A stretch of DNA of 48,043 nt, taken from Lentisphaerae bacterium GWF2_49_21. GTDB lineage: Bacteria; Verrucomicrobiota; Lentisphaeria; Victivallales; GWF2-50-93. The stretch lies in assembly GCA_001804805.1 (NCBI GenBank), contig MHBH01000089.1, positions 1 through 48,043 of the forward strand, in the 5' to 3' direction. Each line of letters begins with the position of its first letter. The first letter of the stretch is position 1. A program made the position numbers and the translations under genes. Of this stretch, positions 42,938-46,533 are shown piece by piece. The notes beneath the pieces are model-generated. The model ran no database searches. It was not told the origin of the DNA and was given only the letters and a program-made list of their open reading frames with translations.

Positions 42938-43571
42938 TTGGACGGAGCGCTGGCATCCTGCCGGCAATTAGAGGTCTTCTGCCTGTAATTTATTTTCCTC
43001 TTTTCAATAGAAAGCTATAGACACGCTAAAGATGTGAACTCCAACGATTGAGACACCACCCTGTAGGAGTTCATCACGTGACCACGTTGACACGTGGAAC
43101 GTGACTCACGTGCCAACTTTAGTAGTGTCTTATCTTAGCTCCATTCGGGTTTGCTCCCTGACAGGTTCCAGAAACCATCGCCTTGAACAGATGACATTTC
43201 GTTCGTAGTAGCGCATGTTTGCGCGTTCTTTTGCTTTTCAGGATCCATGAATAATGCTAGAGCACGAGACCCTACTACATAATCCCATAATTCTCCAGCC
43301 ATATCCCCTTGAATTCCAACGTGTTCATACTACATTACCTTAAAGCGGGGCGGTTCACAGGCTAGGCAGATACCATTTCAAGCCATCATTCATGACTTGA
43401 TGTTTAGCCGCCGACTTGATACTAATAAACTGTTATGAGCAGAATCGTTAAATTAACAATTATAGAATATGAATACAAGATGAAAAAGGAAAGTAATCAT
43501 AACCAGACGCCTCCAGATAATCCGGCTCCGCCGTCTTCCTGAAGTTTTTACGTTAAAAACAAAGAAAATAT
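42938..43571. other. Gene-poor spacer
   Basis: 634 bp with no convincing gene. It contains a CACGTG-rich stretch (about 43075-43112: CACGTGACCACGTTGACACG and ACTCACGTGCC), a possible 55-codon minus-strand ORF (43135-43302) and a 36-codon plus-strand ORF from the ATG at 43436 with no Shine-Dalgarno sequence. No RNA gene was recognised. It is probably a decayed or repeat-built region. Confidence 0.5.
43135..43302 (-). CDS. Possible small ORF or gene remnant (55 aa)
   Basis: An open frame giving MAGELWDYVVGSRALALFMD and ending ...GFWNLSGSKPEWS. AAGGGG lies 2 nt before the ATG, too close for a normal Shine-Dalgarno sequence. The frame stays open 9 codons further upstream without an ATG. The composition looks protein-like but I recognise no family. 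It may be the C-terminal remnant of a decayed gene. Confidence 0.25.
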   Translation of the reverse strand: MAGELWDYVVGSRALALFMDPEKQKNAQTCATTNEMSSVQGDGFWNLSGSKPEWS

Positions 43572-43834: not shown

Positions 43835-44512
43835 CTATATTCCATCCCATACAGGTTTGCCAAGAAAGGTGGAAAGAGACTGGGCATCTTTGCGCAGCTT
43901 TTCTGAATTGCCATGGTCGATGACATTTATCCGGGAGCCGTCCTCCAGTACAAGATTGAGCTCGTAGCTGTAATAGGAAGACTTGTTTCCGCTGCAGTAT
44001 TCTGATACGAGCTGAAGCGCATGTATCTGATTCAGCTTCGTATAGTGCTTGAGTGTCTCGGGATTCAGCATCTTCTCCGGATTCTGCCAGCCTTTCCAGA
44101 AATGGCCCGCCCTTCTGTCGAAGACAATTGGCTTTGTCCCGAAATAGAGCATAATTCCGCCTATGATTGCAAAGATAGATCCTATCAGGATAGGTACAAT
44201 TGTTTCAGGATTTAATCCTAATTTACCTTCAGAATACATTGCGATTGGAACCGCAAGCATCACTCCTAGTCCGATAAAAAGAAAGATCAGATAGAAAAAT
44301 TTGGCTCCCCAGGATGAACGGAATTCCATCCTTTCCGGACCCATGGCGATCAGCCTGTGCGTGCAGAAGTTCGCTCCACCTCCCTTTGCCGGAGTCCAGC
44401 CTGTCTTGCCCGCCAGCGGATCGTTGAAAATACTGGGATCAAAAGATTTCCTTGCACCCGAAAGGCTCTTAAGGAATTCCTGTATGCCGTTGATAGAGAA
44501 ATTGAATTTCAT
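43835..44512 (-). CDS. Two-TM membrane protein of unknown function
   Basis: A 225-aa protein I cannot assign. An N-terminal soluble part (about 1-70, with DPLAGKTGWTPAKGGGANFCTHRL) is followed by two TM helices (about 71-93 and 103-124) and a C-terminal soluble domain, PIVFDRRAGHFWKGWQ...LNLVLEDGSRINVIDHG (about 128-225). Its strand pattern resembles small PH-like membrane-associated domains. The start is set at MKFNFS (44512) because the longer frame to 44614 reads through the promoter. It is monocistronic. Confidence 0.75.
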   Translation of the reverse strand: MKFNFSINGIQEFLKSLSGARKSFDPSIFNDPLAGKTGWTPAKGGGANFCTHRLIAMGPERMEFRSSWGAKFFYLIFLFIGLGVMLAVPIAMYSEGKLGLNPETIVPILIGSIFAIIGGIMLYFGTKPIVFDRRAGHFWKGWQNPEKMLNPETLKHYTKLNQIHALQLVSEYCSGNKSSYYSYELNLVLEDGSRINVIDHGNSEKLRKDAQSLSTFLGKPVWDGI

Positions 44513-44521
44513 AATGTAGGA

Positions 44522-44550
44522 AAAATAATCCGGAACTGGTGAATAATCAA
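44522..44550 (-). promoter_or_regulatory. Leaderless-type promoter of the two-TM protein gene
   Basis: Minus strand TTGATT (44545-44550), 17-bp spacer ending TCCGGAT, TATTTT (44522-44527), 9 nt to the ATG at 44512. Confidence 0.65.
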
Positions 44551-44647
44551 GGAGTTTGCCATTTTCCCCCATTTCAGGATTTTTACATAACGCCCCAATT
44601 ATAAGCCATGGCACAAAAACTACGTTGCTTATATGTCTTGTCTTTAC

Positions 44648-44770
44648 GTCAGGCGCTTTGGCCTGACCTTGGAATGCGGTGATTCATCACCGCTTTGTAT
44701 CGCAAAATTCATTTTGCGAAATTTAAACGAGAAATGAATTTCTCTGAACAAGGCGGGAATAAATTCCCGC
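44648..44770. repeat. Array of five perfect hairpins with 25-27 bp spacing
   Basis: In order: GTCAGGC-6 nt-GCCTGAC (44648-44667); GCGGTGAT-TC-ATCACCGC (44676-44693); TCGCAAAAT-TC-ATTTTGCGA (44700-44719); GAGAAAT-GA-ATTTCTC (44729-44744); GCGGGAAT-AA-ATTCCCGC (44753-44770). Centres are 27, 25, 27 and 25 bp apart. Arms are unrelated in sequence, but hairpins 2-5 all have AT-NN-AT centres. It fills the gap between the two-TM protein gene and a sulfatase gene; a 64-codon frame across it is not a gene. Confidence 0.85.
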
Positions 44771-44878
44771 ACTCCATGTGATTCGCTTCCCACTTCGCCC
44801 CTTGGGCTACTAGGGACAGGTCGCTCATCATAAAACAATTTTAATACGAATCATTTAATAATTTTCGATTCTTACCTA

Positions 44879-46372
44879 CTATTTCTTCCTCTGGGCCTCG
44901 GTTATCTCGAGACCTGTCGAATAATCAAGCTGGCGCGGTTCGTATTCCTCGTTCTCGCGCTGGCGTGTCATGCCGGTGTATGACCAGCTGGCATCCTTGG
45001 CATCCTTGCGCCACGGCCTGCGTTCCCAGTAGTAGCCTCTGAAGGGATCGCGTGTCCTGTTCATCCATTCGAGAAGCTTGTCATGGAGACCGTCCCTTAT
45101 CTTCGCATGCTCCTCGGAATTTATCAGATTCTTCATCTCGTAGGAATCTTCTTCAAGGTCATAGAGCTCATCGGAAGCCAGGAGGTTTATCACCAGCTTG
45201 TAGCGGCTGTCACGGCAGCAGCGGATTGGCTGGAATCCGCCGAACCCGTCATGGTCGACCTCATAGCGTCCGAATTCGATGAAGATTTCATCGTTGATAA
45301 ACACATCAGGATCTTCAAATGCCTCCAATACGGTGGTTCCTTCAAGAATGCTGGGTATTTCAACATCCATAAAGTCCATCATGGTCGGAACAATGTCTAT
45401 GTGTGATATGAGGCTCTCGGATGCGGACCCTTTGGAAGCAACTTCCGGACATTTCACGATGAGAGGAACATTCGTTATCTCCTCATACATCGCTGCTCCC
45501 TTGCCGCCTATGGAATGGGAATTCATCATGTCTCCATGGTCGGTCGTGTAGATCACAAGTGCATCGGGGGCGTTCTTCTCAATCGCCTCCATGACTCTTC
45601 CGATCTCGTAGTCGACATACGAATTGCATGCCAGGAAATAAGTATAGGCATCAAGCTTCAGCGAGTCCTTGTCACCCTTGCATGCGTCTCCAGACCAGGC
45701 CTTGTGGTGTTCCGGCTTGTCATCGAGCCTGTCCCAGATGTTCGGGCTCTTCGGGAACTCATAGCCCTTGTACATGTCGATAAAGCGTTTCGGGCAAAGG
45801 TAGGGATGATGCGGTTCGTCATAGGAGACGACAAGGAGGAAATCCTCATCAGTGTTCTTGCCGATGAAATCTATCGCCTTGTCAGAAACCCTGTGTCCGT
45901 AGAGGAAATCTTCAGAAAGATCCTCCTCATTGGTTTTCGGAAGCCTGGAGCGGACACGGTCCTTCTCGCTGAGTTCTTCAAGATAGCTGCGCATGTCGTA
46001 CCAGTAATTTTCATCCCAGCCTTCAGGGCATCTTCCGACTCCGAAATAGTCTCCTCCGTCAAGGTGCCATTTGCCGATGTATGCGCAATGGATTCCGTTG
46101 TCTGCGAATCTTTGTCCAATCGTCTTCACATTGTCACCAAGCGCCATGCTGTTGCCCCAGCTTCCGCTGGAATGCGGATAGATCCCTGTGAACAGTGCGG
46201 CACGCGCGGGCCCGCAGACCGGCTGGCAGCAGTATGCCTTCTCGAAACGGACGCCCTGCTCTGCGAGCTTGTCCAGGTTTGGCGTCTTCATATCCTTGTT
46301 TCCATAGCATCCCAGCATGTCCTTGCGCTGGGTGTCTGTCATGATCAAAACAACTTTTCTACCTGATCCCAT
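44879..46372 (-). CDS. Sulfatase (Cys-type)
   Basis: A 497-aa sulfatase (PF00884). VVLIMTDTQRKDMLGCYGN is the first metal motif, PVCGPARAALFTG the CxPxR formylglycine site and YTTDHGDMMNSHSIGGKGAAMYEE the second metal motif. The C-terminal WNxxREPF-like part is RDPFRGYYWERRPW. I choose MGSGRK (46372); an ATG at 46405 adds 11 residues unlike sulfatase N-termini. No signal peptide is seen. The gene is divergent from the sulfatase at 46534 with a 161-bp shared upstream region, so the two may be co-regulated. Confidence 0.92.
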   Translation of the reverse strand: MGSGRKVVLIMTDTQRKDMLGCYGNKDMKTPNLDKLAEQGVRFEKAYCCQPVCGPARAALFTGIYPHSSGSWGNSMALGDNVKTIGQRFADNGIHCAYIGKWHLDGGDYFGVGRCPEGWDENYWYDMRSYLEELSEKDRVRSRLPKTNEEDLSEDFLYGHRVSDKAIDFIGKNTDEDFLLVVSYDEPHHPYLCPKRFIDMYKGYEFPKSPNIWDRLDDKPEHHKAWSGDACKGDKDSLKLDAYTYFLACNSYVDYEIGRVMEAIEKNAPDALVIYTTDHGDMMNSHSIGGKGAAMYEEITNVPLIVKCPEVASKGSASESLISHIDIVPTMMDFMDVEIPSILEGTTVLEAFEDPDVFINDEIFIEFGRYEVDHDGFGGFQPIRCCRDSRYKLVINLLASDELYDLEEDSYEMKNLINSEEHAKIRDGLHDKLLEWMNRTRDPFRGYYWERRPWRKDAKDASWSYTGMTRQRENEEYEPRQLDYSTGLEITEAQRKK

Positions 46373-46533
46373 ATTTTTTTCCGTTTCAGTTAAAATTGAA
46401 TTCATTATTTGAAAGGATGAGAATTTATAATATCAAAGGAGATTTTCTACCTTGAAAGCAAAATATAATCAAGGGAACCTTTGAAATTTGACATATCCTG
46501 AATAAAATAGAAGAAGCAAAACGAAATTTAATT

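Follow-up and report, generated by a model that had tools for sequence, protein, structure and literature searches.

Work on the recognition of REP repeats by RAYT proteins has concerned a few Proteobacteria, in which the GTAG tag plays the central part. In IS200/IS605 elements, a Y1 HUH protein is accompanied by subterminal hairpins and by a guide tetranucleotide next to the hairpin foot. Repeats of the REPIN/BIME type (PMC3116915, PMC6006769, PMC8266576) combine two inverted halves with conserved ends and a variable spacer, and each half carries one hairpin directly 3' of a short conserved tag, GT(A/G)G. TIRtrons or TIRYTs (PMC3733652) are RAYT-like genes flanked by repeats without GTAG, some of them double-palindromic, and the published TIRs share a GGGGWSAS motif. 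The host phylum studied here, Lentisphaerae, is not named in PMC6006769 or PMC3733652, the two REP papers in which we looked for it, and our literature search found no paper joining 'Lentisphaer' and 'tyrosine transposase'. Here, we describe a hairpin element from this phylum that is very probably a non-autonomous, RAYT-associated repeat, namely a REPIN or TIR element of elaborate design, and thus an unusual relative of REP repeats and not a wholly new structure.

The window, by which we mean the whole analysed stretch of 48,043 nucleotides from Lentisphaerae bacterium GWF2_49_21 (contig MHBH01000089.1), contains five consecutive inverted repeats exactly where the original prediction had placed them (Table 1). 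Their centres lie at 44657.5, 44684.5, 44709.5, 44736.5 and 44761.5, reproducing the claimed steps of 27, 25, 27 and 25 bp. The five-hairpin array is real and far above chance, as 130-bp stretches held at most two such repeats in 40 first-order Markov shuffles of the window, and its single-strand folding gave z = -5.3 on the plus strand and -5.2 on the minus strand, with no dinucleotide shuffle as good. The 2-nt centres within AT-NN-AT were found in the last four hairpins but not in the first, which has a 6-nt loop. The element exceeds the span first reported: hairpins A and D are bordered by boxes on their outer sides, and there is also a right outer hairpin with a conserved tail of ~70 bp. 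In the host genome, the GTCAGGC left outer hairpin recurs in 18 copies with exact arms and a TTGGANTGC box directly after it, and the enlarged form of the right outer hairpin occurs three times at ≤3 mismatches. The window copy is flanked by the 3' end of a sulfatase gene (44879-46405, minus strand, PF00884) and the start of a gene for an uncharacterised protein (43835-44614, minus strand) that had no Pfam match. A separate stretch of the window (43305-43434, 130 bp) is 92% identical to one beside element copy L002 and appears to be a second dispersed repeat near the window copy.

Table 1. Parts of the element in the window, in forward-strand positions
Feature	Position	Strand	Remark
T-rich conserved left end, ending TTTAC	44636..44647	+	26-copy flank alignment, consensus TT.T.TTTA.GTCAGGC; outer limit inexact
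Left outer hairpin GTCAGGC-GCTTTG-GCCTGAC, 7 bp, 6-nt loop; first of the five predicted	44648..44667	+	
Left box TTGGAAT (family consensus TTGGA(G/C)T)	44669..44675	+	
Hairpin A, GCGGTGAT-TC-ATCACCGC	44676..44693	.	
Hairpin B, TCGCAAAAT-TC-ATTTTGCGA	44700..44719	.	
Hairpin C, GAGAAAT-GA-ATTTCTC	44729..44744	.	
Hairpin D, GCGGGAAT-AA-ATTCCCGC	44753..44770	.	
Right box ACTCCA, inverted copy of left box	44771..44776	+	
Right outer hairpin GATTCGC...GCTCATC, loop enlarged here by second imperfect hairpin CCCACTTCGCCCCTTGGGCTACTAGGGACAGG	44780..44829	+	
A+T-rich conserved right tail, consensus ATAAA.CATT..AAT...	44830..44875	+	outer limit approximate

We aligned 17 full copies gap-free, reading each inward from both ends (with the box there taken as TGGA(G/C)T and hairpins A and B as 8-2-8). 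The core opens with the box TTGGA(G/C)T and hairpin A, and hairpin B follows after 7 nt. Beyond a middle of variable length come hairpin C, another 7 nt, hairpin D and A(G/C)TCCAA. The element is thus an inverted dimer whose two halves each consist of a TTGGA(G/C)T box and two hairpins 25 nt apart. Boxes and hairpins are inverted in 17 of 17 copies, as in a REPIN-type dimer with a foldable spacer, and the left box is able to pair with the right one, closing the structure with a stem (97% paired cells over the 17 copies). The two halves differ: in copies of the common type, CGCGAAAT or TCGCAAAAT is found in one half, and GACGGAAT or GAGAAAT in the other. Outside the boxes lie two outer hairpins, the left one usually GTCAGGC and the right one often GATTCGC..GCTCATC, and A+T-rich conserved tails, which bring the full element to ~250 bp with approximate ends. 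A simpler and commoner type has only hairpins A and D, with centres 60-105 nt apart.

Hairpin centres are 25 nt apart between A and B, and likewise between C and D, in every one of the 17 full copies, whereas the B-C distance takes values of 25, 27, 30, 31, 32, 35, 39 or 43. Hence, the regular 25-27 bp pitch proposed for the array holds inside each half but not across the whole, and because the pitch of the five hairpins varies, the placing of alternate centres on opposite faces of the duplex is not a family feature. The claim that spacing and not sequence is conserved stands between arrays of different arm type, as arms may differ completely while the 25-nt pitch within each half is kept (L027 and L091 compared with L001); it does not stand within one type, where up to 95% identity extends over 149-150 bp. 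The arms are not direct repeats, which rules out a CRISPR or tandem repeat in agreement with the original prediction, while its contrast with REP elements was not borne out, because the element is tied to a RAYT clade as REP elements are.

The arms covary strongly. Over 41 pairs in the 17 copies, 95.7% of cells were paired compared to 86.9% after shuffling, and two-sided changes occurred in 22 of the 41 pairs (9.4 in shuffled data), with 70 two-sided versus 7 one-sided cells, which are not independent events since some copies are close kin. Sliding the pair partners by 1-3 columns destroyed the signal. G-U or G-T steps were nearly absent, and the signal therefore points to DNA and not RNA. The loop dinucleotides are pyrimidine in hairpin A (17 of 17) and hairpin B (16 of 17; 33 of 34 together) and purine in C and D (34 of 34), so that both halves present pyrimidine loops when read from their own box towards the middle. 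This polarity fits a protein that reads folded single strands, whereas nothing in a duplex dyad would be expected to preserve it. The notion that 2-nt loops favour a DNA cruciform or protein-bound dyads over RNA hairpins is thus upheld as to DNA over RNA but not as to a symmetric duplex dyad. Most copies have GAGT at the hairpin A foot, and it stands at 31 of the 34 feet overall, with GACT at 2 and GAAT at 1, and the classical REP tag, GTAG or GTGG 0-2 nt 5' of the hairpin, was absent at all 34. The element is therefore not a textbook REP, GTAG being absent and GAGT standing in its place.

As the original prediction required, arrays were found again both in the same genome and in relatives. 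A 201-bp query of the element matched 46 places in the host assembly (G000; 5.9 Mb in 91 contigs), fragments included. Among 40 relatives, the element was present in every one of the three genomes from the genus of the host and in one of four from its family, while the rest of this order sample gave two marginal matches and essentially nothing else; the genomes with the element are lake and groundwater Lentisphaerae. A pattern scan of one genome per species found it in Lentisphaerae metagenome-assembled genomes (MAGs), notably GWF2_50_93 and several lake MAGs, together with a few scattered single matches in unrelated bacteria, approximately the number expected by chance on our own estimate. 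The copies are intergenic, with 0-4 of 63 inside an open reading frame (ORF) depending on the ORF cut-off. In G001, the sulfatase orthologue (78% identical) has no element beside it. The two neighbour genes of the window copy are not adjacent in five relatives, and because they lie apart there, the exact junction of an empty site could not be read. Between these species, moreover, intergenic DNA has diverged too far to yield such a junction. With element ends that are approximate, we saw no excision, exact-junction empty site or target duplication.

Several copies are decayed or interrupted (L004, L014, L020). In L004, L014 and L015, the loop of hairpin D is replaced by CAGTCTTCGC(T)AAGAAGCTACGCCCGACA, apparently through a small insertion into the hairpin tip. 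The assemblies are MAGs whose contigs break at repeats, and five ends or starts of G000 contigs (L223-L227; C31, C46, C79, C80 and C86) break within ~85 bp of the same sequence, GATTTGACAGGAACCTTAATGGGTGAC, which in at least three of them takes the place of the left outer hairpin immediately ahead of the TTGGAGT box. It looks as though a multicopy insertion sequence, missing from the assembly, targeted this hairpin. Furthermore, single-hairpin units of the form TTGGAGT-ACAAGCT-TC-AGCTTGT and their inverted partners, with the same box, stand alone at L007 (1850-1910), L027, L029, L053 and L055, and would constitute a further repeat family with a shared box.

We found a specific group of RAYT genes to be associated with the element. 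The host genome has 20 Y1 transposase matches; the gene at L047 lies between a box with GCGGCACccctGTGCCGC and GCGCAACagggGTTGCGC with an inverted box, and that at L046 lies between complete two-hairpin elements. Among homologues of the L047 protein fetched from relatives, we observed boxes on both sides within 450 bp in 10 of 10 full-length genes of the L047 clade, in five genomes, and in 0 of the 26 other, more distant Y1 genes in the tree (Fisher p ~4e-9 over 36 tree genes, relatedness ignored). In the tree, a single branch of moderate support (77/76) separates the flanked genes from the rest. At L180 and L188, the flanks carry diverged boxes (CCGGAGT, GCTGGAGT), which were first spotted by eye and then matched with a loosened pattern. 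L182 (G001; 191 aa) and L186 (G003; 181 aa) each lie between two four-hairpin arrays that are complete, or almost so, and in direct orientation; one array of the two at each locus has one damaged hairpin. Such four-hairpin flanking was seen in these sister species only, and L185, which groups with L182 and L186 at 92/96, is flanked by a related multi-hairpin type. The model NF047646, 'REP-associated tyrosine transposase', gave 86-87 bits for L182 and L186 (cut-off 80), with L047 exactly at the cut-off and L046 just below it, whereas the IS200 model NF033573 reached only 18.5-23.6 bits (cut-off 55), so that by curated model the encoded protein is not a TnpA of the IS200 type. The NHYH (HUH) and Tyr motifs are conserved in these proteins, and the sole solved relative that we found is TnpArep (4er8). 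Overall, the element is scattered in the intergenic DNA of one Lentisphaerae clade, and its copies enclose the genes of a specific clade of RAYTs, HUH proteins with a single catalytic tyrosine. The L182/L186/L185 subclade is not represented in the host assembly (best identity 47%), and the RAYT for the window's exact type is therefore missing or unassembled; for the window copy, the probable alternatives are mobilisation in trans by a paralogous RAYT, the status of a relic, or a RAYT of its own in an assembly gap.

The element was compared with three described systems. With REPIN/BIME repeats it shares the inverted halves, conserved ends and variable spacer, the compensatory changes, the intergenic scatter, the one RAYT clade flanked by repeats and the hairpin directly 3' of a short conserved tag; it differs in that this tag is GAGT and that each half has two hairpins at a fixed 25-nt pitch, with outer hairpins in addition. 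With IS200/IS605 it shares a Y1 HUH protein, subterminal hairpins and a tetranucleotide beside the foot, but the protein scores as a RAYT and only weakly as IS200, and the repeats far outnumber the gene. The element is closest to the TIRtrons of PMC3733652, with a more elaborate hairpin layout. As there, a RAYT-like gene is flanked by inverted, partly self-complementary non-GTAG repeats, which are also dispersed as a family in species that have no GTAG REPs; unlike there, the arrays on the two sides of L182 and of L186 stand in direct orientation, every one of them being a complete inverted dimer in its own right, and a four-hairpin design is not described in the text of that paper as far as it was accessible.

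From this anatomy and from RAYT/REP biology (PMC3116915, PMC8266576), we infer that the element may move, fold as a single strand in vivo and be bound by a RAYT. The hairpins would fold when the strand is single, for example on the lagging-strand template at a replication fork, and the RAYT would read the box, whose GAGT at the foot of the hairpin takes the position of GTAG, together with the pyrimidine loop of correctly oriented hairpins. Cutting and rejoining of the strand near the element ends would then allow copies to spread. The 25-nt pitch may place both hairpins of a half for one protein assembly, and the L182/L186/L185 subclade would serve the four-hairpin type. More tentatively, and with rather less than even confidence, we suggest that the element represents a distinct class of RAYT substrate, with two hairpins per half, a strict 25-nt pitch and free arms, in which the transposase reads shape, spacing, loop polarity and GAGT instead of stem sequence, perhaps with several proteins assembled on four to six hairpins.

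An RNA element, with hairpins kept because they act in the transcript of the upstream gene (through 3' end protection, attenuation or as a bidirectional terminator), would account for a strong bias of orientation and position. When copies are oriented by the GTCAGGC hairpin, the right-hand neighbour gene points its 3' end at the right end of the element in 29 of 34 cases, and among co-directional gene pairs the orientation is biased 22:3 (≥150 aa) or 15:2 (≥250 aa), counts that are approximate as they derive from simple ORF calls. REPs themselves, however, are known from downstream of genes (PMC3733652), and the placement bias therefore fits a mobile element too. An intrinsic terminator was rejected, as one hairpin matched the consensus where shuffles average 0.7, and no Rfam structured RNA family came near its gathering score. 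Moreover, G-U intermediates are scarce among the covarying cells, an RNA element would have no need of conserved boxes or of a RAYT association, and the copies adjoin unrelated genes, which together make this explanation improbable.

We consider it very improbable that the element is a duplex or cruciform array of phased dyads for a host DNA-binding protein, such as a nucleoid or replication organiser. The perfect palindromes, 2-nt centres and constant 25-bp pitch inside each half would suit such an array, but the arms vary between copies, so that a sequence-reading dimer is unlikely; the middle spacing is unphased (25 to 43), the strand polarity of the loops would not be kept by a symmetric duplex site, and RAYT is the only associated gene. 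The copies could also be neutral debris, the ends of long-dead insertion sequences whose perfect arms are kept solely by quasi-palindrome template switching in replication. Template switching is a known source of two-sided changes without selection, and the decayed copies L004, L014 and L020 and the absence of a close RAYT from the host agree with debris. Correction within hairpins, however, does not maintain boxes, the 25-nt pitch and loop polarity in 17 of 17 copies, nor does it put intact arrays around intact RAYT genes, and we give this account little weight.

The clade offers a natural collection of RAYTs whose presumed substrates have a different tag (GAGT), several hairpins and many covarying arm sequences, in which what a RAYT reads, be it tag, stem, loop or spacing, can be separated. 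Under the guide rule proposed for REPs (PMC8266576), GAGT would predict a different cleavage dinucleotide, one other than CT, and the conserved TTTAC at the left edge of the element is a candidate site.

Two more Y1 genes of the host genome stand among repeats of other kinds. One, at L042 (G000:C67, 1000-1950), is flanked on both sides by ACAGGCG-tct-CGCCTGT and ACAGGCC-N3-GGCCTGT, apparently forming a second, independent RAYT-REP pair. The other, at L048 (G000:C9, 1350-2220), lies between GTAGGTACGGCC...GGCTGTACC and GGTACAGGCT(G/A)AAGCCCGTACCTACTT repeats, which carry GTAG and look like classical REPs.
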